Program-made: the position numbers and the translations under genes | Notes under the pieces: generated by a model | The model's input: the letters and a program-made list of their open reading frames with translations, nothing else | Databases searched by the model: none | Told to the model about the DNA's origin: nothing | In this document: positions 2,539-53,518 of the stretch, piece after piece | How the letters are laid out: each line of letters starts with the position of its first letter | How positions within the stretch are numbered: position 1 is the first letter of the stretch | Origin: a virus | Strand: one strand, 5' to 3' | Length of the DNA stretch: 54,406 nt | IMG/VR virus record: IMGVR_UViG_3300010373_001372 | Coordinates: 1-54,406 of that record

Positions 2539-3693
2539 TCATGCCTCGGCCGCGCGCTTCTGGAAGTGCGGGCTGTGGTGCCAGTAGACGTCTTCGACCA
2601 TCTGCACGGTCATGCTGGCGGCGTCGGCGACTTCCTCGAGGCTGAGGCCGGATTGCACCCACCAGGTCACGCGGGTGTGGCGCAGGATGTGGGGCGTCAC
2701 TTCCTTGCCTAGCGCGCCGCCTTCGACAGCCGCATACCAGGGCTTACGCATCTTCTGGATCGGCTGGCCCTCGTAGGCCACGACGTGCCAGTGGTCGGTG
2801 CAGGGCTTGCCGGTCTTCTCCGCAATCGCCTTGCGCTTCTCGGCGTCGATCCGGTGCCAGCGGCGAAGGTGCGCAAGGATCCTGCGGTTGAGTTTCAGCG
2901 GGCCTCGCCGCTTGCTGGTCTCCTCCTCGCCGGCGCCCCGCCGGTAGAGCACGCCGCTGTCGAGATTGACCCAGCCGCCATTGACGTTGGCCATCCACTT
3001 GATGGCGAGGATCGCAGCGTGCCTCGTGCCGGTGTAGAGGCCGAGCAGGATGAAGCGGGCGCAATGGCGGTTGACCGCGCCGAGGTCGCGGCGCCAGCGG
3101 CTATGCTCCTCGCGCGTGGCGAGGTCCGTCCAGGTCAGCTTGTACCAGCCTAGCGCCCCGGCGAGCAGCGTGGCCGCCGCGCTACGCGTCAGCCAGTGCT
3201 GACGAGGTGGTGACTTCGGCGGCAGTGTGACGACGGGGATGCTGTCGAGCGGGCCGTGCTCGCGGTGCCAGTAATTGATCGCCGCCGACAGGACCGCCAG
3301 CTCGCGGCGGATCGACCCCGGCTTGATCTTCTTGCCGCGCAGCGCCGCATATTCGCGACAGGTCGCGCCCCGAATATCGGAGAGCTTGCGCTGCCCCCAA
3401 TAAGGCAGCAGGGCCGCGATATTGTAGCCAGCCATTTCCGGGCTGGAGCCGCGCGTGTTAGGCGCATGCTCCCGGCCATAGGCGGTCAGGACCTCGGCGA
3501 CGCTGAGGCGAGCTGGACTACTTTGGCTGACAGGCTCGAACTTGTCCGCGAGGTACTGCGAGAGTGCTTTTTCAGCGCCTGTGCTGTCATCAGCGCCGCA
3601 GCCTGTGCGGATAGATTTCGCTCCGTCTCGGATGATCCAGACGGCTTCGTCGTCGCGGAGGTAGAGCCTTGGGGGCTGTCTTTTGCGCGGCAT
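2539..3693 (-). CDS. int: Tyrosine recombinase, phage integrase
   Basis: 384 residues. The C-terminal catalytic domain shows the active-site set: Arg in LYTGTRHAAIL, HILRHTRVTW (H-x-x-R) and the nucleophile Tyr in VEDVYWHHSP, close to the C-terminus. The N-terminal part has a basic arm-binding region (MPRKRQPPRLYLRDD) and a SAM-like core-binding domain. The open frame extends upstream to 3831, but ATG 3693 starts the natural basic N-terminus. It is the last gene of the leftward early operon and overlaps the excisionase by about 200 bases. It would catalyse integration at, and excision from, the tRNA-Thr att site. Truncation is not apparent. Confidence 0.9.
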   Translation of the reverse strand: MPRKRQPPRLYLRDDEAVWIIRDGAKSIRTGCGADDSTGAEKALSQYLADKFEPVSQSSPARLSVAEVLTAYGREHAPNTRGSSPEMAGYNIAALLPYWGQRKLSDIRGATCREYAALRGKKIKPGSIRRELAVLSAAINYWHREHGPLDSIPVVTLPPKSPPRQHWLTRSAAATLLAGALGWYKLTWTDLATREEHSRWRRDLGAVNRHCARFILLGLYTGTRHAAILAIKWMANVNGGWVNLDSGVLYRRGAGEEETSKRRGPLKLNRRILAHLRRWHRIDAEKRKAIAEKTGKPCTDHWHVVAYEGQPIQKMRKPWYAAVEGGALGKEVTPHILRHTRVTWWVQSGLSLEEVADAASMTVQMVEDVYWHHSPHFQKRAAEA

Positions 3694-3872
3694 GTTTTCA
3701 CCATCATCCCCTTGATGCCCTGGGGGGTCACGAAGTCTTGCCGCCCGATCCGCATGATCGTCAAGGTCCCCCGGCCCGCCTCGGCGCGCAGCGTCTTCGG
3801 CGTGATCGTGTTGCGAAAGAACATTTCGCACGCCTCTTTGAGCGTCAGCGGCGTGTCGTCGGTGACGTCCAT
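3486..3872 (-). CDS. xis: Excisionase-like small DNA-binding protein
   Basis: 128 residues. The first ~65 form a compact MerR/Xis-like winged helix: LTLKEACEMFF, a polar turn ITPKTLRAEAGRG, then LTIMRIGRQDFVTPQGI, the layout of recombination directionality factors common in rhizobial prophages. The C-terminal half is Ser/Thr/Lys-rich and low-complexity and lies within the integrase reading region (208 bases of overlap), so translation of xis and int is probably coupled. ATG 3872 was chosen; a GTG at 3878 overlapping the dnaN stop is possible. It would bend DNA at attL/attR to direct excision. The long C-terminal tail may be a by-product of the overlap. Confidence 0.7.
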   Translation of the reverse strand: MDVTDDTPLTLKEACEMFFRNTITPKTLRAEAGRGTLTIMRIGRQDFVTPQGIKGMMVKTCRAKDSPQGSTSATTKPSGSSETERNLSAQAAALMTAQALKKHSRSTSRTSSSLSAKVVQLASASPRS

Positions 3873-36783: not shown

Positions 36784-36786
36784 TCG

Positions 36787-37179
36787 ATGGATTTTTCCGC
36801 CTTTGTTGGCCTGCCCTGGAAAGACCGGGGCCGGGGGCCGGACGGCTATGATTGCTGGGGCTTGTTCATCGCGGCGTTTCGCGCCGGCACGTGCATCAGC
36901 CTGTCGAGTTATGCCGACGACTACACCACAGCGATCGACAAGGCTGAAGTCGCACGTATCTTCGCTGGTGAGCTGGGCGACTGGGCCGAGATCGAGCGTG
37001 GCCGCGAGCGCCCGTTCGACGGCGTCACCATGCGTATTGCGGGCCAACTGCATATCGGCCTCATCGTCGCACGCGGGGCGATGCTGCACATGCCGTTCGG
37101 CAAGTCTTCCGTCATCGAGCGCCTCGACCGCTACACGCCCGTTCTGACGGGCCTCTACCGTCACCGGGAATTTGCATGA
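36787..37179 (+). CDS. NlpC/P60-like tail peptidase, gpK-like
   Basis: 130 residues. Catalytic Cys in PDGYDCWGLFIAAFRAG, a His in QLHIGLIVARG and a third residue nearby give the NlpC/P60 papain-like arrangement. The N-terminal JAB metallopeptidase domain of lambda gpK is missing. It would open peptidoglycan locally during DNA entry. The gene lies before the J-like protein and overlaps its start by four bases. Confidence 0.8.
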   Translation: MDFSAFVGLPWKDRGRGPDGYDCWGLFIAAFRAGTCISLSSYADDYTTAIDKAEVARIFAGELGDWAEIERGRERPFDGVTMRIAGQLHIGLIVARGAMLHMPFGKSSVIERLDRYTPVLTGLYRHREFA

Positions 37180-40100
37180 CTTTGCCGATCCAAGGCCCGC
37201 TGCATGGCGAGATCATCCTGCCGGGCGAGGGCATTACGCTCGTGCTGGCGATGCACCCGCTTAAGCTCGACCGGCAGGTTGAAACCCTGCCTGCCGGCCT
37301 GACCGTCGCCGAGCTGGTCGATCTCGGCCGCGCGATCGCGACGACGCGTATTCGCAGCCGCGTTGCCGTCTACCTCGATGGTCAGATCGTGCCCGAAGCC
37401 TGGTGGGCATGCGTCCGGCCCAAGCCGGGCACATCCATGCTGGTGCGCGCCGTGGCAGGGCAGGGAGCCGGCGACCTGCTGCGCAGTGTGCTGGGGCTTG
37501 CCGTCGTTGCAGCTGGCATCTTCCTCGCCCCAGTCATCGCGCCGATCCTAGGCCTTTCTGCCGGTCTTGTCGGCGCTGCCATTACGGTCGGTGGGCAACT
37601 GCTGATCAATGCGCTGTTTCCGATCGCCGCGCCGCAGCTCGCCAGCAGTTCGGGCACCACCTCGCAGACCTATTCGATCTCGGGGGGACAAAATGCCGCC
37701 GACCCGTTCGGCGTCATTCCCGTCATCCTCGGCAAGAACCGTTATTATCCGAAGCTCGGCGCGCGCTCCTATACCGAGTTCATCGGCGCCGATCAGTATC
37801 TCCGCATGCTGTTCGTCTGGGGGTATGGGCCGCTCGATATTTCCGAGATCAAGATCGGCGAAACGCTGCTCAGCGATTTCGAGGACGTCGAGGTAGAAAC
37901 GCGCTTCGGCTATCCCGACGATGAGCCGGTGACGCTCTATCCCAATGAGGTCATCCAGGATGACCTGACGATCGACCTGACCTTCGCGGCCGGCTGGCAG
38001 CAGCGCACATCCGCCACGGCGGTCGACGAAATCTCGCTCGATATCGTCGCGCCGGGTGGCATTGTCCGCATCGACAGCTCCGGCAATTCGAACAACTACA
38101 CCGTGTCGATCCGGGCAGAATACAGCCCAGCCGGCATGAACACGTGGACGTTGCTCGATACCCTCGACATTACGTCGCAGTCGACCGACGCGATCCGCAC
38201 GTCCATGCGCCTCGTGATGCCGTCGCACGGCCAGTACGACGTGCAGGTCAAGAAGACCTCGACCGACTATTCGGGCGGCGACCATGTGCAGGAAGACGTG
38301 GTGTGGACGGCGCTTCGCGGCTTCCGCAATTCGCCACCGATTTCGTTCTCAAAGCCGCTTGCGGTGACGGCGCTGAGGATCCGTGCCTCCTCGCAGCTCA
38401 ACGGCGTCATCGACGATCTCAACGGCATCTGCCAGTCGAAGGGCAAGTCGTGGAACGGCGCGACCTGGCTCGATGATACGATCACCCGTAACCCCGGCGA
38501 TCTCTTCCGCCTGGTGCTGCAAAGCCCGGCAAACGCCAAGCCGGTCGACGACGATCATATCGACCTCTCGATGATCGAGGCTTACGCCGAACGCTGCACC
38601 TCCGAGGGCTTTACCTTCGATATGGTGCGCGACTTCAGCGCTTCGGTCTATGACACGCTGACCGATGTCGGGACCGGCGGCCGCGGCGCCGTGCTGTTCC
38701 GCGACGGCAAATGGTCACTTGCCTGGGAAGAGGCATCGGACCCGATCATCCAGCACTTCACCCCGCGCAACTCGTGGGGCTTCACCGGCTCGCGCACCTA
38801 TACGCAGATGCCGCACGCCTTCCGCATCAGCTTCGTCAATGAAGACAACGGCTATCAGCAGGATGAGCGCATTGTTTACGACGATGGTTACAATACCGAT
38901 GGCAGCAGCGGACTGACCGCCGCGACGCTGTTCGAGCAGATCGAGTTTCCGGGGCAGACCAACCCCGACAACATCTACCGCTTCGGCCGCTACTACATCG
39001 CCCAGGCGCGGCTGAGGCCTGAGGTCTACACCCTCAATGCCGATGTCGAACACATCGTCTGCACGCGTGGCGATCGCGTCCGCGTTGCCCATGACGTGCC
39101 CCTCTGGGGCATCACCAGCGGGCGCGTGAAGGCCGTTGCCGGGCAGGCGGTGACGCTCGACGAGCCGGTAGTGATGGTCGACGGCAAGAATTACACGCTG
39201 CGCTTCCGTCTCTCCGACGGCAGCTCGCTGCTGAAGACCGCGGTGACCGTCGCCGGTTCACAGACCGTCATCACGCTGGTCGATCTCGACATGCCCGCCG
39301 CAGGCGATCTCTTCATGGCCGGCGAGAGCAATGAGGAGAGCGTCGTGCTCCGCGTCCGCTCGATCACGCCCGACAAGGACCTGTCGGCCAAAATCACCTT
39401 CGTCGATGATGCGCCCGAAATCCTCGATGCCGACAGCGGCACGATCCCTGATTTCAACAGTCATGTGACGGCGCCGCCGGCGCTGTTTGCGGCCAAGCCG
39501 AGCAACCTGAAGGTCCGTGAGAACTTCTCCGGCACCGGCGAAAACGTCATCACCGGCGCCTTCTTCAGCTGGGAAACCACGGCCGGGCAGGACCCACAGA
39601 GTTTCGAGACGCAGTTCAACGATGAGGATGGCGACGGTATCTGGAAGCCCACCGGCAGCGTCGCCATGCCGACCAAGGAAATCTTCGTCACCGACTATCG
39701 CGGCGGCAGCTGGGGATTTCGCGTGCGCGCCATCTACCCAAACGGCATCGCCTCGGACTGGGCAACGCTGGCGAGCCAGCCGCTGACCGGCGGCACCGTG
39801 GTCGCCACGGTGCCCGATGGGTCGCTGGGCCGCGACAAGTTCGCCGCCGACGTCAGAAGTGCGCTCAATTATTTCGGCCAGGCGCTGCTCGATCTGCTCG
39901 AAAACATGGACGCTATCTCGGCTGCCCAGCAGGATCAGGACCTCGCCAACTCTGACGATAAAAAGCAGGTTCTTGCAGCGCTGTCGTCGCAGATCGGCAG
40001 CACGCTTGCCACGGTCCAGTCCGTAGCCGCGACGCTGGCGACGCAGAATAGTGCAACGGCTGCTATCGCCACTGGCGCCCAGGCGACGGCGAACAACGCA

Positions 40101-40355
40101 ACCGCCTCTGCACTCTGGAAGATGGAGGCGACGTCTACCCCCGCGGGCACCGACACCCGCGTCGGCACGTATCTTCGCACCGATACGGGCAGCGGTTACG
40201 TCGCCGAGGCATTTGAGTATCTCGATATTCAAGCGGACGGGTCGACCCGAAAAGTCGTCAACGTCGACCTGCACGAAATCCTCGCGCGTGACGGCAGCGC
40301 TGCCGAAATCTTCGATACGCGCACCGGCAACTGGTCGGTTGGATCGACATCGTGA
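37176..40355 (+). CDS. Central tail tip/host specificity protein, gpI+gpJ-like
   Basis: 1059 residues. The N-terminal ~140 residues hold a beta-grasp-like section and a hydrophobic Gly-rich segment (LRSVLGLAVVAAGIFLAPVI) like gpI; from about residue 165 the J-type core begins: YSISGGQNAADPFGVIPVIL, GKNRYYPKLGARSYTEF, LFVWGYGPLDISEIKIGE. Later come fibronectin-like beta domains and a C-terminal coiled coil with DLLENMDAISAAQQDQDLAN. The protein forms the central tip that contacts the receptor. The I/J fusion is one polypeptide; the C-terminal coil implies a trimer. Confidence 0.85.
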   Translation: MTLPIQGPLHGEIILPGEGITLVLAMHPLKLDRQVETLPAGLTVAELVDLGRAIATTRIRSRVAVYLDGQIVPEAWWACVRPKPGTSMLVRAVAGQGAGDLLRSVLGLAVVAAGIFLAPVIAPILGLSAGLVGAAITVGGQLLINALFPIAAPQLASSSGTTSQTYSISGGQNAADPFGVIPVILGKNRYYPKLGARSYTEFIGADQYLRMLFVWGYGPLDISEIKIGETLLSDFEDVEVETRFGYPDDEPVTLYPNEVIQDDLTIDLTFAAGWQQRTSATAVDEISLDIVAPGGIVRIDSSGNSNNYTVSIRAEYSPAGMNTWTLLDTLDITSQSTDAIRTSMRLVMPSHGQYDVQVKKTSTDYSGGDHVQEDVVWTALRGFRNSPPISFSKPLAVTALRIRASSQLNGVIDDLNGICQSKGKSWNGATWLDDTITRNPGDLFRLVLQSPANAKPVDDDHIDLSMIEAYAERCTSEGFTFDMVRDFSASVYDTLTDVGTGGRGAVLFRDGKWSLAWEEASDPIIQHFTPRNSWGFTGSRTYTQMPHAFRISFVNEDNGYQQDERIVYDDGYNTDGSSGLTAATLFEQIEFPGQTNPDNIYRFGRYYIAQARLRPEVYTLNADVEHIVCTRGDRVRVAHDVPLWGITSGRVKAVAGQAVTLDEPVVMVDGKNYTLRFRLSDGSSLLKTAVTVAGSQTVITLVDLDMPAAGDLFMAGESNEESVVLRVRSITPDKDLSAKITFVDDAPEILDADSGTIPDFNSHVTAPPALFAAKPSNLKVRENFSGTGENVITGAFFSWETTAGQDPQSFETQFNDEDGDGIWKPTGSVAMPTKEIFVTDYRGGSWGFRVRAIYPNGIASDWATLASQPLTGGTVVATVPDGSLGRDKFAADVRSALNYFGQALLDLLENMDAISAAQQDQDLANSDDKKQVLAALSSQIGSTLATVQSVAATLATQNSATAAIATGAQATANNATASALWKMEATSTPAGTDTRVGTYLRTDTGSGYVAEAFEYLDIQADGSTRKVVNVDLHEILARDGSAAEIFDTRTGNWSVGSTS

Positions 40356-41149
40356 CGCGTGCGGTAGCTCTCAACGATGTCGACGTCGTTGCCATCATCG
40401 ACAGCGCGCCGGGCGGCGGCGACCTGACGGATTCCACGGCGCTTTGCAACCGCCCGGCCATCGATCCGGCGAACTGGCTGGCCAACAATTATTTCAACAG
40501 CGCCTTCGATTATTACGAGCTGCTCGTCCCGGTGCAGACCGTCTCGATTACCCACACGGTGCTTGCCACGGCGTCGACCCTGGTCCTTTCGATCGTCGGC
40601 CTGTCGATCACGATCAAGGGGCAGCAGGACGATCGCGATATCGTCCTCTATGCCCACAACCTCGGCTACGTGCCCACCTACATGATCGCCTACAATGGCG
40701 GCCGCCTTTCAGCGGGGCAGCACGTCGTCATTAGGGGCGCCGGAACCACCTCGCAGCGCAGCCGCTGCGTCTCGCATGATGCCGATGCGACCAACATCTA
40801 CCTGCACGAGCATTGCACTTCGGGCGACGTCGATCTCGAGGCTGACACTCTGTCCTACGAGGTGATGATCTTCAACCGGCCGGTCCGCGACCCGGACCTG
40901 CCGCTGCTTTCCTACGACAACTCCGGCACTGGCGTGGCCCTGATCGATCACGGTCGTATCCGCAGCGACCGGCACTATCTGCGCAAGGCGCTCGCCGCCG
41001 AAACAAGCTTCGATATCAATCTCGGCCCGACCATGGATATCAACGACGGCTTCGTCCGCGTCGTCACCGGCGGTGTGGTCTTCGATGAGCCCGGTTACGG
41101 CGGCTCGTGGGCCGGGCCCGCCTACGTGCCCGTCAGCGGCATCTTCTGA
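40352..41149 (+). CDS. Tail-tip-associated protein, unknown
   Basis: 265 residues, beta-rich with a hydrophobic strand pair (TVSITHTVLATASTLVLSIV). Cys residues at about 31, 140 and 152, and HEHCTSGDVDLEADTLSYEV suggest structural folds, not catalysis. It starts four bases inside the J gene and ends overlapping the next, in the order of tail fibre genes. It may be a side fibre or adhesin subunit. Confidence 0.6.
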   Translation: MTRAVALNDVDVVAIIDSAPGGGDLTDSTALCNRPAIDPANWLANNYFNSAFDYYELLVPVQTVSITHTVLATASTLVLSIVGLSITIKGQQDDRDIVLYAHNLGYVPTYMIAYNGGRLSAGQHVVIRGAGTTSQRSRCVSHDADATNIYLHEHCTSGDVDLEADTLSYEVMIFNRPVRDPDLPLLSYDNSGTGVALIDHGRIRSDRHYLRKALAAETSFDINLGPTMDINDGFVRVVTGGVVFDEPGYGGSWAGPAYVPVSGIF

Positions 41150-41970
41150 TGGGCGGCAGTTTCGGCTACCGCAACGACACGACGCCGCCGCGGTTCGAGC
41201 ACCTTGATGGCGGGCGTGTCGTCTGGCGAAGCGATGCCGCGCCCGCCCTGCTGTTGCCGGATACCGCGTGGCTCAACTGGTCAGGAACCATCACCTGCCC
41301 TGATTTCATCAAGGGCAACGCCATGTATCAGGGTTGGAACGGTGTCACTGGCGGGTCCGCGCTATATCAGGGGTCGATCTGGTCGGTTATGCGTCCGGGC
41401 ACGTGGGGACCCGACGAGCCAAGTCCCTATAACATTCCGCGGATTCTGCTCGGCACCATCCCGGCTGCCTGCAACTTTATCGAGGTCGTGGCCAATCTCA
41501 CGCGCGTCCAGTCGATCTTCGTTTTCTTCTTCGTCGCCGCGTCGCAATACCAGAAGTACGGCGCTTACATCGATCCGGATGGTGGGTGCATCGAACTGGA
41601 AGGTACCCACGCCTGGCGCCGCATCTTCAAGGTGGTAATGGCGCCGACCGATAACGGCGACGGCACCCGCAACGTCTACCTCGAAACCTATCAGTCGGTG
41701 AAATACCAGGCGAAGTTCACGACCGATATCGGCGGCAACATGAAAACCGATCCGCAGAGCTACGACGGCAGCGCGACCTCGGCCTGGTACAACAAGTGGA
41801 CGCATGACGGCGATCCGAGCGGTTGGCTTTGGTGGCTGATGGCCACCACCGGCAACGACATTAACTCGATGCGCGGCGGCTCCGGCCAGCCCTCGGCCGC
41901 TGATACTTCCGACTGGACGACGCAGTGGACGACGACCCTGAGCGTCCGCCCCGGTTACGCGCAAACCTAA
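41149..41970 (+). CDS. Tail fibre-region protein, unknown
   Basis: 273 residues from ATG 41149, which overlaps the previous TGA by one base. Sequence marks: MGGSFGYRNDTTPPRFEHLD, VVWRSDAAPALLLPDTAW, FFFVAASQYQKYGAYIDPDG and TDNGDGTRNVYLETYQSVKY. Trp/Tyr-rich beta architecture like surface-binding phage proteins. Its receptor is unknown. The frame is open further upstream but only into overlapping J-side sequence. Confidence 0.6.
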   Translation: MGGSFGYRNDTTPPRFEHLDGGRVVWRSDAAPALLLPDTAWLNWSGTITCPDFIKGNAMYQGWNGVTGGSALYQGSIWSVMRPGTWGPDEPSPYNIPRILLGTIPAACNFIEVVANLTRVQSIFVFFFVAASQYQKYGAYIDPDGGCIELEGTHAWRRIFKVVMAPTDNGDGTRNVYLETYQSVKYQAKFTTDIGGNMKTDPQSYDGSATSAWYNKWTHDGDPSGWLWWLMATTGNDINSMRGGSGQPSAADTSDWTTQWTTTLSVRPGYAQT

Positions 41971-41988
41971 CCCTCAAGAGGTAATCCA

Positions 41989-43806
41989 TTGGCTTACACG
42001 ATTGCCCCAAATCCGGGGACGATTTCGATCGCCCATGGCTCGGCCGACCTCATCGGCGTCGCAACCAACTTCACTGCTTTCAACAAGGGGGCTTTGGTTC
42101 TCGCCGAAGGTTTCGGCATTGTCGGACAGCTCGCGGCTGACCCGACCGACGACGAAGCCGCAACCCTGGCGCTCGCCCTCGGCGGCATCACTGACATCGC
42201 CGGGGTTGCCTACCAGATCATCCCGCAGTCCGAGCCCGCAGTCTATTCGCAGCGCGTCCGGCAGATGATCGAGACGATGCAAACGGTACGGCTTGGTATG
42301 CCGATGGTGATGGACGCTGGCAGCACTGCCGATAGTGATCCGGGGGCCGGCAAGGTTCGGTTCAACAACGACACGACACCGACGATTGCCTACCTCAGCA
42401 AGACTGACGCATTAGGAAACGACATATCCGGTCGGCTGGCCATCCTCGATGACAGCCTCAATGCGGCCTCCCGCGCAGTGCTCATGCTGACGCCGACTGA
42501 CACGGCAAACGCCTATCTCGATTTCGATGTGACTGCCGCGCTCACCGACGCGGGGGGTTATGTCAAAGTGCCCGTTGCCCTGCGCGCCGGTGCCGTCCCT
42601 GCCGACAAAGCGCAGCTCGCCATGACCGGCATCCCGAGCGGCAAGGATGGGGCGCCGGGCGTCATCACGGCTGGGTCAACGGGCGCAACCGACAACGCGT
42701 TACTTCGCGCGGATGGGACCGGCGGCCACACGGCACAGACGTCGTCGGTCATCGTGGACGACAGTGGCAATTTGACCACGCCTGGCAGTCTTGGCGGCTC
42801 TAAAGTTTCAGCGAACGCGAATGCTGTCGCTCTACCTGCCGGGCTCACCGGGACGCTGTTTCAAATTGCGGGTGCCGATGGCGTTGTCGCGCGCCTGCAG
42901 ATTAATGCCTTCGCGCAGCAACCCTTTGTGACCTTTGCGAGAGCCGATGGAACAGGAGCTGCGCCGTCGCCAGTGCAATCTGCCGAGCCGCTCGGCGGAT
43001 TTGGGTGGACGGGATATGGAACGACGGCCTACGCGCCGAGCAGCCGAGCATCGATTGCCGCCTACGCTGCTGAGAACTGGTCGGATACCGCGCAGGGCAC
43101 CTATTTTGTCTTCAGCAATAATCCTATCGGCAGCGCGGGGGTGGCTACCGAGCGCTTGCGCATCGCGCCTGACGGCTCGATCACACTGCTTGCCAATTCT
43201 CTCACCGTGTTCGACGCGAACGGCATCGCGGGCCTCCGCAGCTACACGATGGCAACAATGCCGGCCGCGGGCGCCGGTAGCGGCGCTGCAAGGCTCATTT
43301 ATGTCACGGACTCGCCGGGCGGGGGCTGCATCTACATCTCCAACGGATCGGTCTGGGCACCGGTCAAGACCCGTGAAATCTGCATCGTCAAGCCGACCGA
43401 TCAGACAGTGGCCAGCAACACGACGCCGGCCAATGATAGCGCCCTTCAGTTCCCGATGGCGCCGAACACCGTTTATAACATTGATCTCGACATCTACTTC
43501 GAAGGCCCGGCGACGCCTGGGTTTAAATGGAACCTCACTGGGCCGGCCGGAGCGACGCTGGTCCGCGTCGAACGCGAAACTCGCGCCCCTGCAGCGACCA
43601 CTTATACGGTCGCAACTGACGCTGCTTACACCACGGCGCAAGGCATCGGCGGTAACGCCACGACGAGCGGGCGCCTGAGGATCAAGTGCCTGGTGCAAAA
43701 CGGCGCTACGGCCGGCACCTTTGCCTTCCAATGGGCCCAGAACACGAGCAATGCGACGGCATCGACGGTTCGGGCAGGTAGCAAGCTGGAATACTCAACC
43801 CCCTGA
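41989..43806 (+). CDS. Tail fibre or tail spike
   Basis: 605 residues, TTG start behind AAGAGGTAA. Typical fibre repeats such as TAGSTGATDNALLRADGTGG, SSVIVDDSGNLTTPGSLGGS, and TERLRIAPDGSITLLANSLT occur after an N-terminal beta domain; the C-terminal ~140 residues form a beta jelly-roll-like domain including YNIDLDIYFEGPATPGFKWN. Likely trimeric side fibre binding the host surface. Fibre repeats of this type are widespread in phages with polysaccharide or pilus receptors. Confidence 0.75.
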   Translation: MAYTIAPNPGTISIAHGSADLIGVATNFTAFNKGALVLAEGFGIVGQLAADPTDDEAATLALALGGITDIAGVAYQIIPQSEPAVYSQRVRQMIETMQTVRLGMPMVMDAGSTADSDPGAGKVRFNNDTTPTIAYLSKTDALGNDISGRLAILDDSLNAASRAVLMLTPTDTANAYLDFDVTAALTDAGGYVKVPVALRAGAVPADKAQLAMTGIPSGKDGAPGVITAGSTGATDNALLRADGTGGHTAQTSSVIVDDSGNLTTPGSLGGSKVSANANAVALPAGLTGTLFQIAGADGVVARLQINAFAQQPFVTFARADGTGAAPSPVQSAEPLGGFGWTGYGTTAYAPSSRASIAAYAAENWSDTAQGTYFVFSNNPIGSAGVATERLRIAPDGSITLLANSLTVFDANGIAGLRSYTMATMPAAGAGSGAARLIYVTDSPGGGCIYISNGSVWAPVKTREICIVKPTDQTVASNTTPANDSALQFPMAPNTVYNIDLDIYFEGPATPGFKWNLTGPAGATLVRVERETRAPAATTYTVATDAAYTTAQGIGGNATTSGRLRIKCLVQNGATAGTFAFQWAQNTSNATASTVRAGSKLEYSTP

Positions 43807-43821: not shown

Positions 43822-44178
43822 ATGGCCGATACCCCGCAGCCCTATCTCTACGAGTTCCTCTGGCGCGGCCGTGCGCTTGGCGACAACACGCCTCCGGCAT
43901 TTCACGTCATCATGGCTGTCGATGGTCAGGACGAATTCGGCAAGCCTACCCACGCCGAGCAGATCATGAACGTGGAACAGGCGGCCGATGCTGGAATTGA
44001 CCTTTCGACCATTTTAACGGGGCTGAACGCGTCTGCACTGGCGACGGTCAACTCGCTGACGGCCAGCCTGGCGAGCGCGACGGCCGATCGTGATAGTGCC
44101 CGGCAGGAACGGGACGATCTGGCCGCCCAGGTATCTGCGCTCGAGGCCCAGCTCAACGCGGTTCAGCCCGAAAGCTAG
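43822..44178 (+). CDS. Small fibre-linked protein with coiled coil
   Basis: 118 residues. The N-terminal half includes YLYEFLWRGRALGDNTPPAF and HVIMAVDGQDEFGKPTHAEQ; the second half is a coiled coil (ASATADRDSARQERDDLAAQ, VSALEAQLNAVQ). It may be a fibre assembly protein or a short fibre. GGAGTGACC precedes ATG. Its stop overlaps the sulfotransferase gene's end by four bases on opposite strands. Confidence 0.6.
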   Translation: MADTPQPYLYEFLWRGRALGDNTPPAFHVIMAVDGQDEFGKPTHAEQIMNVEQAADAGIDLSTILTGLNASALATVNSLTASLASATADRDSARQERDDLAAQVSALEAQLNAVQPES

Positions 44179-45002
44179 GCCAGGCGCAGCCGGCGCATCA
44201 TCCCGCCAAACAGTGGCTGCCGATCGGAGGCGACCTCGTCCGGGACGCGTATGCCGGTTAACGCGGCGGTGAGGCGAGCATCCTGGGCAAACTCTCGGCG
44301 CAAGTATCGAAGGTCATTGCCGTCGATAGGAGCGCCGTCCTCGTGGGAGAAGATGGTCTCCGGGGTGATCTTGGCGCCGAATGGCGCGACGCCGAGAAAG
44401 GTCGCGATCCTATCCAGCGTCGGAGCGATGTCAGTCTTGAGATCAGCCTGACTGACGAACAGGATTTGCCGACTTGGGAAGTGACGAAACAGCCGCTCGA
44501 TCTGCGGCGCATAGAAGCCCCGTTCTACATAGCTGAAAACGCGGTGTGGTTGGCCGCCCATTCTGGCACGGCCCCCTCGAATGGCGTCGCCAAAGGACAG
44601 TTTTTCGGCGTAGCGTGCGGTTTCCATCCGCCAATGGGAAAATGCCCGAAGAGCCGGGTCGCGCAGCGAGACCACAAGTTTGATCTCTGGGTTATAGGCG
44701 GCGATACGCTCGATGCAATTCGGCCAGAAGGTATAGATCGGCGTCGCCTCGCCGAGGGCCGTCTTATTCTGCAGATCGGTGAAATGAGCGTGCAGCGCGC
44801 CATAGTCAGGTTTGGCCCAATCCAGTTCGTCGCTGTCGAAGAAGTGTAACTCCTTCGATGCCGACAGCCCCACATCCGGGTGCTGGCGCAGGAAGTGCCA
44901 AAGCGCGGTGGTGCCGCCCTTTTGAACGCCGGCGACGAGGAAATCGAGCTTGCGCACTTTCTCAGCGTCCGATCGGCCTGGACAGCGGGATAAACTCGCC
45001 AT
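44175..45002 (-). CDS. PAPS-dependent sulfotransferase
   Basis: 275 residues from ATG 45002; the open frame goes on to 45098 but lies within the upstream gene. The 5'-phosphosulfate loop is FLVAGVQKGGTTALWHFLRQ, the 3'-phosphate site is VVSLRDPALRAFSHWRME, and SASKELHFFDSD is the usual strand after the first helix, with a candidate catalytic His in ELHFFD. This is a bacterial-type polysaccharide or glycolipid sulfotransferase. It overlaps by 41 bases a Wzt-C-like gene, so both act together. On the minus strand in the late region, it should be expressed in the lysogen and could sulfate a surface glycan. Confidence 0.8.
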   Translation of the reverse strand: MASLSRCPGRSDAEKVRKLDFLVAGVQKGGTTALWHFLRQHPDVGLSASKELHFFDSDELDWAKPDYGALHAHFTDLQNKTALGEATPIYTFWPNCIERIAAYNPEIKLVVSLRDPALRAFSHWRMETARYAEKLSFGDAIRGGRARMGGQPHRVFSYVERGFYAPQIERLFRHFPSRQILFVSQADLKTDIAPTLDRIATFLGVAPFGAKITPETIFSHEDGAPIDGNDLRYLRREFAQDARLTAALTGIRVPDEVASDRQPLFGGMMRRLRLA

Positions 45003-45513
45003 CGATCCAGACAATGCCCGCAGTTGCCTCGCGCTCTTCGAGAGGGTCAATGCGAAAGGCAATCGCGTCGAGGATTCGGTGTAGATGAGTTCGCTCAAAA
45101 TTGCCGATGCGCGCGGAAACTCCAGCGTTCGTGAAATAGGTGCCAGGTCCGAAGTTGCAGGTAAAGGCGTATGCCACGTGCCTCGTGGTTCCGGCCGCTA
45201 TCGAAGGGATCTGCGCGACGCCATAGGTAGAACCGCCCACGATCTCGAGGCCGGTCAGCGTCTTCACTGCCATCCCGAAGGCGACGTCCTCGACGTCTTC
45301 TGTAAAATCGACAGTATAGCTGTAGAAGTAGCGAAACCCGGGGCGCAGGACGTTGACGCGACCGACGCCAGAGGCGAACACGCCGACGTCCCGGATTCGT
45401 GCGCCGCCTTGGCCATACTCATCTTTGGACTTCGAGACTAGTCCGGGGTCGAAGCTGCCGGGTGGTTCGATCCCGGCGAAAAGCTGGTCGTTCTCGACGT
45501 AACCTTCGCTCAT
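44962..45513 (-). CDS. Stand-alone Wzt C-terminal-like glycan-binding protein
   Basis: 183 residues. The segment from ~55 to ~150 has the pattern of the carbohydrate-binding C-terminal domain of Wzt (the ABC exporter ATPase for O-antigen): FTEDVEDVAFGMAVKTLTGL, YGVAQIPSIAAGT, RHVAYAFTCNFGPGTYFTNA. No ABC ATPase part exists here. Wzt-C recognises the modified end of O-antigen chains; alone it might target the partner sulfotransferase to such chains or compete with the exporter. ATG 45513 has GGAG at a good distance. It is the first gene of a two-gene minus-strand operon. Confidence 0.65.
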   Translation of the reverse strand: MSEGYVENDQLFAGIEPPGSFDPGLVSKSKDEYGQGGARIRDVGVFASGVGRVNVLRPGFRYFYSYTVDFTEDVEDVAFGMAVKTLTGLEIVGGSTYGVAQIPSIAAGTTRHVAYAFTCNFGPGTYFTNAGVSARIGNFERTHLHRILDAIAFRIDPLEEREATAGIVWIDGEFIPLSRPIGR

Positions 45514-45533: not shown

Positions 45534-45553
45534 TTGAGATCAATCTATCTCAA
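45534..45553. promoter_or_regulatory. Inverted repeat upstream of the Wzt-C/sulfotransferase cassette
   Basis: TTGAGAT (45534-45540), six bases, ATCTCAA (45547-45553): perfect arms of seven bases. It lies 20 bases upstream of the Wzt-C-like ATG and touches the terminator stem at 45552. A protein-binding operator is plausible; no clear -35/-10 pair was found. Confidence 0.45.
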
Positions 45554-45580
45554 GGCCCGCAATTCTGCGGGCCTTTTTCG
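45552..45580 (+). terminator. Rho-independent terminator before the lysis genes
   Basis: AAGGCCCGCA (45552-45561), loop ATTC, TGCGGGCCTT (45566-45575), then TTT. A perfect 10-base stem pointing rightward. It lies upstream of the endolysin gene, so transcription from the tail genes must be antiterminated or the lysis genes have another start. The other strand lacks a T-run. Confidence 0.8.
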
Positions 45581-45607
45581 CATCCCCTTACCTCATCGGA
45601 GCTTTCC

Positions 45608-46633
45608 ATGCAGTTGAACTTTGCTGCCGCGGTTGCGCTCGTCCTCAAATCCGAGGGCGGCTATGTCGATAATCCGGCTGATCCGGGCGGCGCCACGAAT
45701 ATGGGCATCACCCGGAAGACACTAGCAGCCTGGCGCGGCGTCTCGCCATGGTGGGGCCTGCCGAAGTCGGCCGTGAAGGCGCTCACGGCGGCTGAGGCTG
45801 CCACCATCTACAAGGCGAACTACTGGCAGTCGGTCGCCGGCGATGATCTGCCGGCCGGGCTCGATTACGCCGTCTTCGACTATGGCGTGAACAGCGGCCC
45901 TGGCAAGGCCGCGCGCGACCTGCAGGAGGTGCTTGGCGTCACGGTCGATGGTCGTATCGGCCCGGAGACGGTCGCGGCGGCGAACGCCGCAGGCGCGCAA
46001 GCCACCATCATCAAACTCTGCGATGCGCGGCTCGCCTATGTGCGCAGCCTGCCGCAGGCAGCGACGTTCGGCGCAGGCTGGGCCAAGCGCATCGCCAGCG
46101 TGCGTTCGGGAGCGATGGCCATGGCGATTGGCGCTGTGGTGCCCGCGCCGGTCGCACCGCCTCCTGCGGCATATATCCAGCCTGCACCCGTCGCCGCTAC
46201 GCACGCGATCGTCAAGCAAGGCCTGAAGGCCGCCGGATCAGTGACGATCAACGCCGCCGACATGCAGACCAAGATCGTCGGCACTGCCACGGCCGGGACC
46301 GTGCTGATTGGCGCGGTGAACACCTTCACGGCCGCGCTCGCCAGTGTGCCGCCCTGGGTGTGGATGGTAGCGGCGATCGTCGTGCTGGGCGCCGTACTCT
46401 ACTTCACCAACCGGATCGTTCGCGCCCGCGTCGACGCGGCGATCACCGGCGTCAACACCGAACTGCCGCTGGTGCGTCCCCAAATCGACGCAGCGCCTCC
46501 GCCGCAGGCGATCGTGGTTGCCGATGATCCGCCACAGCCCGAGGGCGACGATGCCGCGGCCCAGCCCGCCGCTCCGTCGGTCGTCGCGCAAGTCTTCAAC
46601 AGCCCCACGCCGGCAGCGGGAGCTGCGCCGTGA
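45608..46633 (+). CDS. GH108 endolysin with C-terminal membrane segment
   Basis: 341 residues. N-terminal muramidase: LKSEGGYVDNPADPGGATNM with catalytic Glu at about 16, then GITRKTLAAWRGV, YWQSVAGDDLPAGLDYAVFD and YGVNSGPGKAARDLQEVLGV (peptidoglycan-binding-like). After residue ~165 comes a Pro/Ala linker, a hydrophobic segment at ~240-260 (VWMVAAIVVLGAVLYF) and a Pro-rich tail. The membrane helix may act as anchor or give holin-like function; no separate holin is obvious except the 47.3-kb gene. Degrades peptidoglycan at the end of infection. ATG 45608. Confidence 0.82.
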   Translation: MQLNFAAAVALVLKSEGGYVDNPADPGGATNMGITRKTLAAWRGVSPWWGLPKSAVKALTAAEAATIYKANYWQSVAGDDLPAGLDYAVFDYGVNSGPGKAARDLQEVLGVTVDGRIGPETVAAANAAGAQATIIKLCDARLAYVRSLPQAATFGAGWAKRIASVRSGAMAMAIGAVVPAPVAPPPAAYIQPAPVAATHAIVKQGLKAAGSVTINAADMQTKIVGTATAGTVLIGAVNTFTAALASVPPWVWMVAAIVVLGAVLYFTNRIVRARVDAAITGVNTELPLVRPQIDAAPPPQAIVVADDPPQPEGDDAAAQPAAPSVVAQVFNSPTPAAGAAP

Positions 46634-47109
46634 TCGCCGCCCTGTTGGCACGCGTCGCTGCCGCGCCGGCACTGGCAGCGATCGGCGGCGTATTCGCTTG
46701 GCTATTCGGCGATTGGCGCAGGATCCTCGCGCTCGTCATCGTTGGCGCCCTGATCGCCACCTATGCGATCGCCGATGATCGCCGCGCCAAGGCCGATGCG
46801 ATCGTGCTGCAGCAGCGGCTCGATGTGCAGTCGAAAGCCTTCATCACCGCCGCCGATGCCGCGATGCGCAAGGAAGATGATCGCCAGGTGGCCGCCGGCG
46901 ATGCCGCAACCACCGAGTTCAACCGGCAGATGGCCATCCGCGATGCGGCTGACGCCAAGGTCGATGCCGCCCTCAAAAAGGAGATTGCCGATGAGGCTCA
47001 AACTCGAGCTGCTCAAGGCAGCATTTGTGCTCTCACTGATGCCGATCGTAGCGTGTTGCGGCCTCCGGCCGGAGCACCTCAGCCCGCAGCTCCAAAAGGC
47101 CGCCGTTGA
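46630..47109 (+). CDS. Inner-membrane spanin, Rz-like
   Basis: 159 residues, GTG start. An N-terminal hydrophobic region (ILALVIVGALIATYAIADD, residues ~31-49) is followed by a long periplasmic helix with many Ala/Asp/Lys residues, e.g. VLQQRLDVQSKAFITAADAA, typical of Rz. The following o-spanin gene is nested in its 3' part in another frame, the lambda Rz/Rz1 layout. With Rz1 it fuses inner and outer membrane during lysis. Confidence 0.75.
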   Translation: MIAALLARVAAAPALAAIGGVFAWLFGDWRRILALVIVGALIATYAIADDRRAKADAIVLQQRLDVQSKAFITAADAAMRKEDDRQVAAGDAATTEFNRQMAIRDAADAKVDAALKKEIADEAQTRAAQGSICALTDADRSVLRPPAGAPQPAAPKGRR

Positions 47110-47311
47110 ACAGGGAACGGCCGCGGCCGGTAAGACGCTGCCCAAGTGGCCGGATCGCTGTAAGCAGGCGACGCCTCACGCCGATGCCGACGCCGCGCCT
47201 GATCTGCACGCCGCGCTGAAGCTCGAGGCCCGCCAGCTCGACAAGGCCAACGGCGACAAGGGCTGGTGCGCACTGTTCTACGGCAACCTTCAGAAGGGCC
47301 TCGCTAAGTGA
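46991..47311 (+). CDS. Outer-membrane spanin lipoprotein, Rz1-like
   Basis: 106 residues in the +1 frame, ATG 46991, starting inside the Rz-like gene. Signal sequence MRLKLELLKAAFVLSLMPIV followed by the lipobox IVAC gives a lipoprotein with mature Cys near residue 22. The rest, up to WCALFYGNLQKGLAK, is short and polar. It reaches further than Rz. Two later Cys residues could form a disulfide. Confidence 0.7.
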   Translation: MRLKLELLKAAFVLSLMPIVACCGLRPEHLSPQLQKAAVEQGTAAAGKTLPKWPDRCKQATPHADADAAPDLHAALKLEARQLDKANGDKGWCALFYGNLQKGLAK

Positions 47312-47700
47312 CGTTCGACCTCGAAACCCTCAAAGTGATTGTCGAGATTGCAGCGGCCGTCATCAGCTCGATAGTGGCCATGCTCGGTGTGGTGTGGCGC
47401 TGGTCGCGCTGGCTGGCGAGTGAATTCGAAAAGCGGGACGCCGCGAGGGTCGAGGAATTGCGGCAGCGCGATTTGGCGCTTGCGGCGGAGACAGTGCGGG
47501 CCAAGGTCGCGGAAGAAGAAGTGCGCCGCTCGATCGAGGCTCACAAACTCTTCGCCGCCGAACACTTCGCCACCGAAGAGGGCGTGGCAAAGGCGATCGA
47601 ACCAATCATCAAGGCGCTCGACAAGATGACCGACCGGCTCGATCGCGTCCTGTCGGACTATTCGGCGAGCCGACCCGTCCCGCCGCGCGCCCGCGGCTAA
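47308..47700 (+). CDS. Membrane protein with coiled coil, holin candidate
   Basis: 130 residues, GTG start. A membrane helix at ~10-32 (IVEIAAAVISSIVAMLGVVW) is followed by long charged coil SEFEKRDAARVEELRQRDLA and a second helical stretch with IKALDKMTDRLDRVL. The layout recalls type III-like holins or DUF2730/Gp-type proteins beside spanins. Only one TM helix. Function in lysis is suggested by location. Confidence 0.55.
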   Translation: MTFDLETLKVIVEIAAAVISSIVAMLGVVWRWSRWLASEFEKRDAARVEELRQRDLALAAETVRAKVAEEEVRRSIEAHKLFAAEHFATEEGVAKAIEPIIKALDKMTDRLDRVLSDYSASRPVPPRARG

Positions 47701-47719
47701 AACCCAGAGAGTTATCATC

Positions 47720-48022
47720 ATGCTCAGGCTTGTTGCGGGCGCCCTTGCGGCGCTCTTTTTCGTTGCGCCCGCCGCTGCCCAGCAGCTGACCGACGTACCG
47801 TGCGCCAACATCGACAATTTCAAGCTCGGCATCGTCAACGCCGGCGGCGAGGTGCTGGGCATCAAACGCGTGCCCTATGCCAATGGCGTGCTGCTGTTCT
47901 GGCGGCAGGGCAGCGGCGTGGCCGCCGCGCCGGTGCTTCCATCGGCAGACGGCACCGGCGCCTGCGTCGCCTATAAGGAGATCATCCCGCTCGGCCTCTA
48001 CATGCCGGAGCGACAGCTGTGA
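47720..48022 (+). CDS. Secreted small protein
   Basis: 100 residues with a signal peptide [20 protein letters not shown] and a predicted cleavage after AQQ-like Ala-Ala-Ala-Gln. The mature part has two Cys ([19 protein letters not shown]) and is beta-like. Function unknown. It is coupled to the RlpA-like gene by overlap of four bases, so possibly a periplasmic factor acting in lysis or in envelope change. Confidence 0.6.
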
Positions 48023-48453
48023 GGGCGGCGCTCTACACGGCCGTCTGGTCGCTGCTGATCCTTGCCCTCCTCGAGGCGTGTTTGTTCCGTCCGCTGCACG
48101 CGCTTGGTGCAACCTATCGGCAGTGCGGTGTTGCGAGTTGGTACGGCTACTCCGGCCGGCCAACCGCCAACGGCGAACGCTTCAATGGTTCGAGCATGAC
48201 GGCCGCCAGCCGAACGCTGCCCTTCGGCACCATCGTGCGCGTCACGGACACGGCAACCGGCCGCTCGGTCGTCGTCCGCATCAACGATCGCGGTCCCTAC
48301 GTTGGCGGCCGGATCATCGACCTCTCACGTGAGGCTGCGCACCGTCTAGGGATCATTCCAGGAGGTACGGCGCGCGTCTGCTTGTCCGCGCCCGGCGATC
48401 CGGGCATTGGGAGGAAATGGGATTTCGTCAAGCCTGCGGCATTTTTGCGATAG
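48019..48453 (+). CDS. RlpA-like double-psi beta-barrel protein
   Basis: 144 residues, GTG start, N-terminal hydrophobic stretch ([15 protein letters not shown]), then the DPBB core: [40 protein letters not shown] and [20 protein letters not shown], which carries the catalytic Asp/His-like residues of RlpA (denuded-glycan lytic transglycosylase); [13 protein letters not shown] closes it. Lacks the SPOR domain of host RlpA. The phage may use it to finish glycan breakdown. The Cys near the N-terminus (LLEAC) suits a lipoprotein. Confidence 0.8.
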
Positions 48454-48511
48454 CGACCACTTTGCCTTCAGCGTATTCTTCTGGCTGATATTTGCTTGGG
48501 GACTAAATGCA

Positions 48512-49198
48512 ATGAAGACATTCGCCATTGTCGGCGCCGCGGCGCTCGGACTTTTGATCGCGACACCCGTGCTCGCGGCAGATCTTGCGGTTCCGGCTGC
48601 TGCTCCTGCCGCGGCCGCGCCGGCGCCAGCGGCGTCGTGGACAGGTGCCTATGTCGGTATTCAAGGTGGATATGTCTGGGGTTCGGCCCCGTCGCCGGAT
48701 CAAGGCTGGGAAGTTGACCCGACTGGCGGCCTCATCGGTGCCTTCGCTGGTTACAACTATGATCTCGGCGGGGTCGTCATCGGCGCTGAAGTAGGCGGGA
48801 ACTGGGACTTTGCTACCGGCTCGGTCGTTACCAATCCTCTCGGTGGCACAGAAACCTTCAAAGCTGATCAGAACTGGGATGCTTCTCTTGTTGGCCGTAT
48901 CGGCGTCCCCGTTGCTGATAGCTTCCTACTATACGGTTTGGCCGGCGGTAGCATTACCCAGGTCTCGGGTGCCTACGATGAAAACCCGCCGCCCAATGAT
49001 CCGACGGTGTCAACTACGGTTGGTGGCTGGACAGTTGGCGCGGGCGCAGAATACAAGCTGACCGATATGTTCTCGGTTCGTGGTGAATACCGCTATGCCT
49101 CTTATGGGAACGCTGATTTGACCTGTTCCTTCTGCGGCCACACGAGCGTAAATCTGTCGACCAACGCTGCAACGATCGGCTTGCTGGCGCACTGGTAG
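48512..49198 (+). CDS. Outer-membrane beta-barrel, Omp25/31-like
   Basis: 228 residues from ATG 48512. Signal peptide MKTFAIVGAAALGLLIATPV with cleavage after LAA, an Ala/Pro linker, then WTGAYVGIQGGYVWGSAPS, GAFAGYNYDLGGVVIGAEVG and a last strand ending in Trp (LLAHW). Short eight-strand barrels like this are common in Rhizobiales. Two Cys (TCSFCGHTS) are extra. It comes after the lysis genes with its own space upstream, so may be a lysogenic-conversion (moron) gene altering the surface. A host origin is also possible. Confidence 0.8.
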   Translation: MKTFAIVGAAALGLLIATPVLAADLAVPAAAPAAAAPAPAASWTGAYVGIQGGYVWGSAPSPDQGWEVDPTGGLIGAFAGYNYDLGGVVIGAEVGGNWDFATGSVVTNPLGGTETFKADQNWDASLVGRIGVPVADSFLLYGLAGGSITQVSGAYDENPPPNDPTVSTTVGGWTVGAGAEYKLTDMFSVRGEYRYASYGNADLTCSFCGHTSVNLSTNAATIGLLAHW

Positions 49199-49378
49199 CC
49201 CACAACTCGGCCACGCCGCCGAGCATGTCCGGCAAGCCACCCGGACAGCCACCAGACACATTCGCGATCCACATTCGCGCGGTCGCACTCAGGCAATGCG
49301 TTCAGGTACGCGGAGGGGTACATGCCGAGGCGAAGCCCGCGGTGTTGAGCCCAGTTTGGCCGCCGGTTGTGAAAGTCC

Positions 49379-49612
49379 TTATTGCAGTCGCAGTGCTCGT
49401 TCGAATGGCAATATGGCGACCGTGCGCCCAGTTGGGTCGGATATTTCCAGCCAGTGCTGATCTATCGGTCCGTCTAGCTGGCCTTCTTTGACGATCGCTC
49501 GCACATCCGACAGAGCCCAGTTCCAGGCGGCCTCCAGGTCGTCAAATTCCCCGCCGCGGGTGTCCTTGAACACACCGTCGTTCTGTCGGAGGTGAAAGTA
49601 ATAGTGAGGCAT
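49379..49612 (-). CDS. DUF6894-family small protein
   Basis: 77 residues: MPHYYFHLRQNDGVFKDTRG, GEFDDLEAAWNWALSDVRAI, then WLEISDPTGRTVAILPFERA. The pattern YYFHLR, D-x-G, and a C-terminal GRTV-strand is a family typical of Rhizobiales genomes and mobile regions. Function is unknown. The flanking gaps at 49199-49378 and 49613-49714 have no convincing gene. Confidence 0.7.
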   Translation of the reverse strand: MPHYYFHLRQNDGVFKDTRGGEFDDLEAAWNWALSDVRAIVKEGQLDGPIDQHWLEISDPTGRTVAILPFERALRLQ

Positions 49613-49714
49613 CGGGGCAGGCTAGGCCCGTTGGCGGCAAAAGTCCCAGAATTTCGCAGTAAGTAAAGTGAGTAAGCGACGGCCTCGGCTCCGAGTTGCT
49701 GAGGCCGTCTGGCT

Positions 49715-49912
49715 TCAGGCCGCTACAGCACCTTTGTCCAGCGGAGCGATAGGACGCGGCCTACTGCCCCCCGCGGGGCTCATCGGCGGGTCGTCATCAT
49801 CATCGAAATACGATCGCTTGAACAGCCGGCGCAGGCGACGCTTCGCCGATTTCGCGGCTTGCTCCAGCTCTTCGCTGTCGTACTCGTCCGACGGATAGAA
49901 AGTTCTGCTCAT
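49715..49912 (-). CDS. Small charged protein next to hsp20
   Basis: 65 residues from ATG 49912. MSRTFYPSDEYDSEELEQAA, KSAKRRLRRLFKRSYFDDDD is first acidic then strongly basic then acidic, and the C-terminus is Pro-rich. No family known. Lies downstream of hsp20 on the same strand, so may be cotranscribed. Low-complexity makes the call moderate. Confidence 0.5.
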   Translation of the reverse strand: MSRTFYPSDEYDSEELEQAAKSAKRRLRRLFKRSYFDDDDDPPMSPAGGSRPRPIAPLDKGAVAA

Positions 49913-49980
49913 CGCATCCTCCACAGATCACGGGCGCCCCCCGATGGAAGTCGGGGAGCGACTAGTTGGAACTGGCACGG

Positions 49981-50439
49981 TCAAGCGGCCGCCTTGGTTT
50001 CCAGTTCGATCTGCTTCTGCGGGGCTTCCGCCGGCGTGGAGGCGATGTTGATGCGGCGGGGCTTCAACTGCTCGGGCACTTCCCGGACCAACTCGATCCG
50101 CAAGAGACCGCTGTCCAGCGAGGCATTGGCGACCTTCACATGGTCGGCGAGACTGAACGTTTGCCGGAAGTCACGGGAAGCTATGCCGCGATGCAGATAG
50201 GACCGATCTTCTGCCTGCTGCTTCTGGCCAACCACGACCAGGGAGTTACCTTCCTGTGTGAGCGTGATCTCGCTGATCGAAAAACCGGCCACCGCCATGC
50301 TGATGCGATAGCTGTCATCGCCCAGTTTCTCGATATCATAGGGTGGCCAGTCGGAGCGGACTGTGCTGTCGAGCATGTCGAAGAGGCTGTCGAAGCCAAC
50401 CGTCGAGCGATAGAGGGGTGTGAAGTCGAAGGTTCTCAT
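49981..50439 (-). CDS. Small heat shock protein Hsp20/IbpA-like
   Basis: 152 residues. The alpha-crystallin domain shows YDIEKLGDDSYRISMAVAGF, SLVVVGQKQQAEDRSYLHRG with the usual FRQTFSLADHV and a C-terminal ELVREVPEQLKPRRINI (I-x-I motif, RRINI). N-terminal part FDFTPLYRSTVGFDSLFDML is typical for rhizobial class A Hsp20. Holdase that binds unfolding proteins. ATG 50439 is preferred with AAGGAG 9 bases away. The leader looks like a ROSE thermometer. Phage or prophage-borne Hsp20 is uncommon. Confidence 0.88.
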   Translation of the reverse strand: MRTFDFTPLYRSTVGFDSLFDMLDSTVRSDWPPYDIEKLGDDSYRISMAVAGFSISEITLTQEGNSLVVVGQKQQAEDRSYLHRGIASRDFRQTFSLADHVKVANASLDSGLLRIELVREVPEQLKPRRINIASTPAEAPQKQIELETKAAA

Positions 50440-50530
50440 AACCACATTCTCCTTAGAGCAACATAGGTACGAGGGACGAACCCGGAGGGTTCACCCCGGT
50501 GATCCAGCCCCAATTTGGCGGCTGGCGACA
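50440..50530 (-). promoter_or_regulatory. ROSE-like RNA thermometer in the hsp20 leader
   Basis: On the minus strand the leader has a perfect hairpin GAACCC-TCC-GGGTTC (complement of 50478-50492), then TTGCT directly upstream of the Shine-Dalgarno AAGGAG (complement of 50449-50461). In ROSE elements a U(U/C)GCU motif masks the ribosome site at low temperature and melts on heating. Length and place fit rhizobial hsp genes. Confidence 0.65.
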
Positions 50531-50669
50531 ATCGATTTATTTCGCCCGTTGCGGTCTTCAAGAGGCTCCCCCAAAAAAATTTTTGGAAGGTGTAATACGC
50601 CTCTTGACGATGGCCTCTTCGCGCCAAAAATCACCGTCGCTCGTTTGTTGACATCGAACGGGAGAGCTT
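50531..50669. other. Divergent hsp20 promoter region
   Basis: Gap between hsp20 and the rightward gene. On the minus strand CTTGAAG (complement of 50557-50563 region) followed by an AT-rich GAAATAAAT could be an RpoH-type promoter for hsp20; the -10 match is weak. A run AAAAAAATTTTT at about 50574-50585 forms an A/T tract. The rightward gene has GGGAG upstream of its ATG. Confidence 0.35.
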
Positions 50670-51056: not shown

Positions 51057-51098
51057 ACAGGTGTTGCCTGGAATTATCTTCAACTTGAGGATGTAGCC

Positions 51099-51865: not shown

Positions 51866-51910
51866 CCGGCAAGACGAAACAGCCGGTAAGAGGCCTATTC
51901 GACGAATGCG

Positions 51911-51931
51911 ACGCCCAGCTCAGACGGCTGG
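51911..51931. terminator. Hairpin downstream of the SRAP gene
   Basis: GCCCAGC (51911-51917), loop of seven, GCTGGGC (51925-51931): a perfect stem about 14 bases past the SRAP stop on the minus strand. There is no T-run on either side, so efficiency as terminator is doubtful. Confidence 0.35.
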
Positions 51932-51944
51932 GCGCGTTGATGAT

Positions 51945-53252: not shown

Positions 53253-53257
53253 TCGGC

Positions 53258-53515: not shown

Positions 53516-53518
53516 CGC

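Follow-up and report, generated by a model that had tools for sequence, protein, structure and literature searches.

A temperate phage encodes a stand-alone Wzt_C domain beside a PAPS-type sulfotransferase, best read as a surface-glycan conversion cassette

In polysaccharide export through ABC transporters, chains become competent for export once their end cap is recognized by the matching carbohydrate-binding domain (CBD), and a CBD expressed separately restores export by a CBD-less transporter, i.e., in trans (PMC9445017). Terminators of the WbdD type, which are kinases or methyltransferases with a coiled-coil ruler, are paired with a matching Wzt C-terminal domain (Wzt-C). The census of terminator chemistries by Mann et al. 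(2019, cited in PMC11231755) may already predict sulfate caps in bacteria. In the O-antigen cluster of Aeromonas salmonicida, Wzt (ORF18) is followed by a protein with a sulfotransferase domain (ORF19; PMC4483657). The conversion enzymes of phages in the cited literature acetylate surface sugars (e.g., PMC9558356), and O-acetylation by SF6 gives superinfection immunity (PMC9558356). Sulfotransferases of phages have also been reported, with a role that was called unclear (PMC10580990).

The window, i.e., the whole stretch of 54,406 nucleotides analyzed here, which comes from an IMG/VR virus record, holds a gene pair that resembles each of these systems in part. Its Wzt_C domain belongs to the same family, over the full length, as the C-terminal domains of Wzt from E. 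coli O9a and A. aeolicus (PMC9445017); the phage copy, however, is free-standing and phage-borne, and neither a Wzm nor an ABC ATPase partner for it was found in the window. As in the WbdD-type terminators, a modifying enzyme is paired with a putative reader domain, but the phage enzyme is a sulfotransferase, and a coiled-coil ruler was not found on its single-domain chain of 260 residues. Because of the missing coiled coil, and because its subfamily is unlike that of most neighbors of Wzt_C, the phage enzyme is not called a terminator here. It has the fold and the PAPS-site motifs of heparan-sulfate (HS) 3-O-sulfotransferases, the sulfotransferase domain of NDST (PDB ID: 1t8t, 3uan, and 1nst), and 3rnl, here in a phage-encoded protein. 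Aeromonas ORF18 and ORF19, compared by gene listing, share with the phage locus a sulfotransferase gene close to a wzt-type gene (directly after wzt), on a bacterial chromosome. Oac of SF6, an AT3 protein, is likewise a phage-borne enzyme with a predicted role in surface-glycan decoration, and the sibling phage L089 carries an AT3 protein in the same block; Oac performs membrane acyl transfer, whereas the phage pair combines a predicted cytoplasmic transfer of sulfate from PAPS with a carbohydrate-binding module.

Table 1 Features of the window around and beyond the Wzt_C/sulfotransferase pair
Feature	Position	Strand	Remarks
Tyrosine integrase, weak match	2539..3831	-	PF00589, E 5e-4, under curated cut-off
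Tail protein J, central	37176..40355	+	phrog_31, E 2e-119; served to find related phages
Tail-fiber-like protein	41989..43806	+	First 98 residues common with L089; remainder unrelated
Block exchanged in L089	42268..45593		Nothing aligns there between window and L089 (blastn)
Small 118-aa protein after fiber, C-terminus coiled-coil-like	43822..44178	+	Stop overlaps sulfotransferase stop, tail to tail
PAPS-type sulfotransferase, 260 aa	44175..44957	-	PF00685, E 3.9e-13; GTG start
Wzt_C carbohydrate-binding domain, stand-alone, 183 aa	44962..45513	-	PF14524, E 9.4e-26
GC-rich hairpin with T-run, plus-strand terminator-like	45552..45575	+	Predicted fold -19.2 kcal/mol
GH108 endolysin, conserved in L089	45608..46633	+	PF05838, E 5e-28

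An initial annotation had proposed that a minus-strand pair between tail fibers and lysin encodes a stand-alone Wzt carbohydrate-binding domain and a PAPS-type sulfotransferase. Both reading frames lie where it had placed them, with the neighbors as claimed, and both domain assignments held up. The PF14524 match of the first gene reaches 91 bits (cut-off 30.4) and covers profile positions 2-143 of 143; it is the only Pfam match of the chain, and no ABC ATPase domain was found on it. Sequence searches against the PDB retrieved Wzt C-terminal domains and Wzt proteins (PDB ID: 2r5o, 5hno, and 7k2t), and 17 columns are invariant in an alignment of eight Wzt_C sequences that includes the phage domain. 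A single-sequence structure model was poor (pLDDT 49); it is nearly all beta and gave no significant fold match in the PDB. The frame begins with an ATG preceded by GGAG, its start coincides with the linker, and it has no internal stops.

The sulfotransferase assignment is carried by two Pfam families (PF00685 with 49.8 bits against a cut-off of 22, PF13469 with 38.9 against 27), by sequence matches to HS 3-O-sulfotransferases in the PDB (1e-22), and by motifs of a predicted PAPS site, conserved across eight sequences and aligned to HS 3-O-sulfotransferases. These are the GxQKxGTT loop (GVQKGGTT in the phage) as the 5'-phosphosulfate loop, Arg103 and Ser111 as 3'-phosphate-binding residues, and a Glu/His motif in the catalytic region, Lys39-Glu40-X-His42, which reads Lys39-Glu40-Leu-His42-Phe-Phe in the phage (P0001 numbering). 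The structure comparison suggested with that annotation agrees: an AlphaFold model made with viral relatives included (pLDDT 77) matches 3rnl and HS 3-O-sulfotransferases with E ~1e-12 and a TM-score of ~0.7, and NDST is also among its fold matches. The mechanically called frame has 307 residues and begins at a TTG (45098) within the Wzt_C gene. The natural start is likely the GTG at 44957, 4 nt past the Wzt_C stop, since the first residues of the resulting protein align with the starts of its relatives.

The two genes lie in an operon layout within a prophage. Judged by a repressor-like HTH/S24 gene, terminase, portal, and J, the window is a lambda-like temperate phage, and the weak tyrosine-integrase match supports this lifestyle. 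The setting is that of a conversion cassette, with the repressor-like gene, the weak integrase, and a non-structural minus-strand pair amid plus-strand late genes. Third-position GC is 0.70-0.73 in the pair and the fiber gene and ~0.80 in J, lysin, and terminase, and this lower value fits acquisition. The J protein is ~44% identical to those of Bradyrhizobium and Rhizobium phages, and an aldo/keto reductase in the flank is up to 71% identical to proteins encoded by members of the family to which a Devosia MAG belongs; the host is an alphaproteobacterium, with this family as the likely host family. Near both ends, at 1241-1261 and 54382-54402, lies a direct repeat of 21 bp with 20 identical positions, a candidate attachment site whose right copy lies at the start of a nuclease gene. 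The window also encodes a homolog of the DNA polymerase III beta clamp in its left arm (3875-5020) and a protein of 926 residues (12990-15770) with a DNA methylase match and a weak SNF2-helicase match below cut-off.

The sibling phage L089, another IMG/VR record, is ~91% identical to the window over 27324-42267 and ~98-99% identical over 45594-54406 (blastn). Between these regions lies a block of unrelated content. In the window it comprises the distal fiber part, the 118-residue protein, and the Wzt_C/sulfotransferase pair; in L089 its place is taken by another distal fiber part, an acyltransferase of the AT3 type encoded on the opposite strand (PF01757, E 8.8e-31), and a pectate-lyase-like tailspike (PF12708, E 6e-5, below the curated cut-off). 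The shared first residues of the fiber are 87% identical. In the sibling, the cargo is thus exchanged, together with the fiber tip, for another putative glycan modifier, and the near-isogenic L089 amounts to a natural allele swap. An assembly artifact is an unlikely origin of the swap because the fiber gene stays open across its boundary. The terminator-like hairpin lies at the border of the exchanged block, immediately 5' of the lysin gene; a consensus scan did not pick it up. As the right arm and much of the structural region differ in their identity to L089, the histories of the arms differ; besides the nuclease gene, the right arm (45594-54406) contains an outer-membrane beta-barrel, Hsp20, and DUF6894.

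Acyltransferases recur at this position. Of 86 related loci, at least 12 have AT3 proteins downstream of J by HMM, and in 10 of the 12 the gene is on the minus strand; this count is a description rather than an independent test, as the HMM was trained on five acyltransferases that are all among the loci counted. Among 118 ORFs sampled in J-downstream intervals, Pfam identified lysozyme (9), AT3 (8), Methyltransf_23 (4), and GT25 (1), so that AT3 is the most frequent non-lysis family in this sample. Annotated acyltransferases also lie between fiber and amidase in Bradyrhizobium phage ppBdUSDA122-1 and past the fiber region in Rhizobium phage RHph_Y3_1. Owing to the swap in L089 and the acyltransferases at these J loci, surface-glycan modification, i.e., lysogenic conversion, is the best reading of the pair. 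Since the pair sits where close relatives carry sugar-acetylating enzymes, it probably lets the phage add sulfate to host surface sugars. The proposal of a lysogenic conversion cassette is supported as far as surface-glycan conversion goes, by prophage setting, domain identities, the L089 swap, and the recurrence of AT3; its further parts, i.e., Wzt-C guidance of the sulfotransferase and blocking of the receptor, are weighed below.

Alternatively, the sulfotransferase might act elsewhere, on a glycan of the phage structure or on a small molecule, and the locus would not serve conversion. Two phage contigs (L218 and L219) encode sulfotransferases beside genes that by eye resemble those of glycosyltransferases or methyltransferases; however, the best matches of the enzyme are polysaccharide sulfotransferases, most of its relatives belong to polysaccharide clusters, and an acyltransferase is the allele at this locus in L089, which makes this alternative very improbable. 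NodH-like signaling sulfation is a further alternative considered for the sulfotransferase.

The relatives were traced in bacteria and in phages. Cereibacter encodes sulfotransferases 48% identical to the phage enzyme in clusters that include dTDP-rhamnose genes and, in one case, also genes for ABC export and exopolysaccharide; a relative from Thioclava (46%) is outside such a polysaccharide cluster. Among the full-length relatives retrieved from the order, the nearest (L206, 56%) has no polysaccharide cluster around it by eye, and an interrupted relative (G158, 55%) lies directly downstream of Wzm and of a Wzt without Wzt_C, in a genome whose other contigs encode two related Wzt_C domains. 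Overall, most of the closest relatives are in polysaccharide clusters. A search of IMG/VR for the sulfotransferase gave eight loci, in none of which Wzt_C was detected; only the second prophage L216 (5899-8464) carries an enzyme that belongs to this subfamily and aligns along most of its length at a good identity (44%), with a methyltransferase-like ORF nearby that lacks Pfam confirmation. The pair itself, which the initial annotation had suggested seeking in other prophages, was not found a second time in IMG/VR or in annotated phages. For Wzt_C, no confirmed relative in another phage came, at the sensitivity applied, from single-sequence and alignment searches of IMG/VR or from single-sequence searches of annotated phages, and neither protein has a PHROG match.

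Bacterial relatives of Wzt_C are parts of longer proteins. Across 397 genomes of the order, the best match is 44% identical and the matching frames are long and Wzt-type (>400 aa), the sole shorter one being cut by a contig edge. In the likely host family, 136 genomes were covered; Wzt_C was present in 19, again in long frames save one at a contig edge, and not found in 117, including the one with the closest flank gene.

The sulfotransferase could be all that matters, as an ordinary conversion enzyme, with the Wzt_C frame as a 3'-terminal fragment acquired from a host wzt gene. Sulfotransferase-like genes can directly follow a Wzt_C-encoding wzt in host clusters, with gaps of 3, -3, and -7 nt (L212, L215, and L224, respectively), and given this adjacency one capture event could bring both. 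On the other hand, the phage frame has its own ATG and GGAG, a linker start, conserved columns, and no stops, and the sulfotransferases adjoining wzt belong to other subfamilies, except in G158, where the neighboring Wzt is the one without Wzt_C. Capture of this kind is thus considered unlikely.

For the pair as a whole, the account to which we lean, with about even confidence, is a conversion cassette that alters an ABC-exported polysaccharide, in which Wzt-C acts as a reader in trans and superinfection is hindered. Beyond the L089 swap and the recurring AT3 genes, it is favored by the polysaccharide clusters around sulfotransferase relatives and by the sulfotransferase-like genes near bacterial Wzt_C domains; against it count the 117 of 136 genomes of the putative host family in which Wzt_C was not found, the missing coiled coil, and the differing subfamily of the enzyme. 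A modifying enzyme together with a free Wzt-C would give the phage the means to make and to read a new mark, in line with PMC9445017. In the cytoplasm, the sulfotransferase would transfer sulfate from PAPS to a lipid-linked glycan of the alphaproteobacterial host; we infer the polysaccharide substrate as well as the reader role of Wzt-C. O-antigen, capsule, and exopolysaccharide are all candidate substrates. The free domain would bind the modified chain and work with the host Wzm/Wzt exporter; being specific for the new mark, this reader would let sulfated chains be exported. The altered surface would no longer be what the phage's own fiber recognizes, so that superinfection would be hindered; receptor blocking is suggested here by analogy with SF6. 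More specifically, the pair might be a transferable combination of writer and reader, in which the sulfate mark and Wzt-C reprogram the host ABC exporter in trans and are exchanged together with the receptor-binding tip, a tentative and rather doubtful extension. If true, phages would be able to change the range of chains accepted by the exporter in addition to the glycan itself, and phage sulfotransferases would gain a testable function.

Two other roles for the free domain are conceivable. Published Wzt-C domains form dimers in which the C-terminal strands are swapped (PMC9445017), so that a free copy could be disruptive: it might act as a decoy that binds nascent O-antigen ends or mixes into host Wzt dimers, blocks export, and removes the receptor, while the sulfotransferase makes the bound tag or acts independently. 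This is quite improbable, because a CBD-less transporter regains export, rather than losing it, when a CBD is supplied separately (PMC9445017). The domain might instead direct the sulfotransferase to the ends of the polysaccharide, much as carbohydrate-binding modules (CBMs) do for enzymes, and take no part in export, which is nearest to the guided sulfation of the initial annotation. The genes are adjacent and, with their gap of 4 nt, probably translationally coupled, and a CBM-like domain occurs within one terminator enzyme (PMC11231755); yet a fusion of Wzt_C and sulfotransferase domains was found at no locus examined, and we regard such targeting as highly improbable. As Wzt-C can be active in trans with an exporter lacking one, pairing with export is as plausible as guidance of the enzyme.

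Sulfotransferase-like genes also lie near Wzt_C in nine bacterial clusters, supported by Pfam in four (L224, L225, L226, and L227, the L225 match being slightly under the curated cut-off), by homology to the N-terminal part of the L225 protein in three (L210, L213, and L214), and by a motif alone in two (L212 and L215). Most of these proteins differ in subfamily from the phage enzyme. The L225 protein also matches coiled-coil families downstream of its sulfotransferase portion, which recalls terminators that bear a ruler. Queried with its N-terminus, five of the eight other Wzt_C clusters scored at <=1e-5 (L226 weakly, at 9e-7, through a second gene), compared with one of 40 other Wzt-like loci (Fisher p 2e-4); this contrast is an indication only, since the query comes from the favored group, the controls were hand-picked from the Wzt-like hit list (half short frames, half long, seven of the long-frame loci with weak Wzt_C matches), and kinship is uncorrected. 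A second sulfotransferase HMM, built without L225-type proteins, gave no match around any Wzt locus. The closest relative of the phage Wzt_C domain (G505) has a sulfotransferase-like gene near it and an adjoining cysD. The bacterial cluster L210 (1-9737) combines a cysN/C-like ORF, cysD, a protein of 1375 residues with an L225-type N-terminus and glycosyltransferases, and Wzm-Wzt with Wzt_C; it is a candidate sulfate-capped polysaccharide system.
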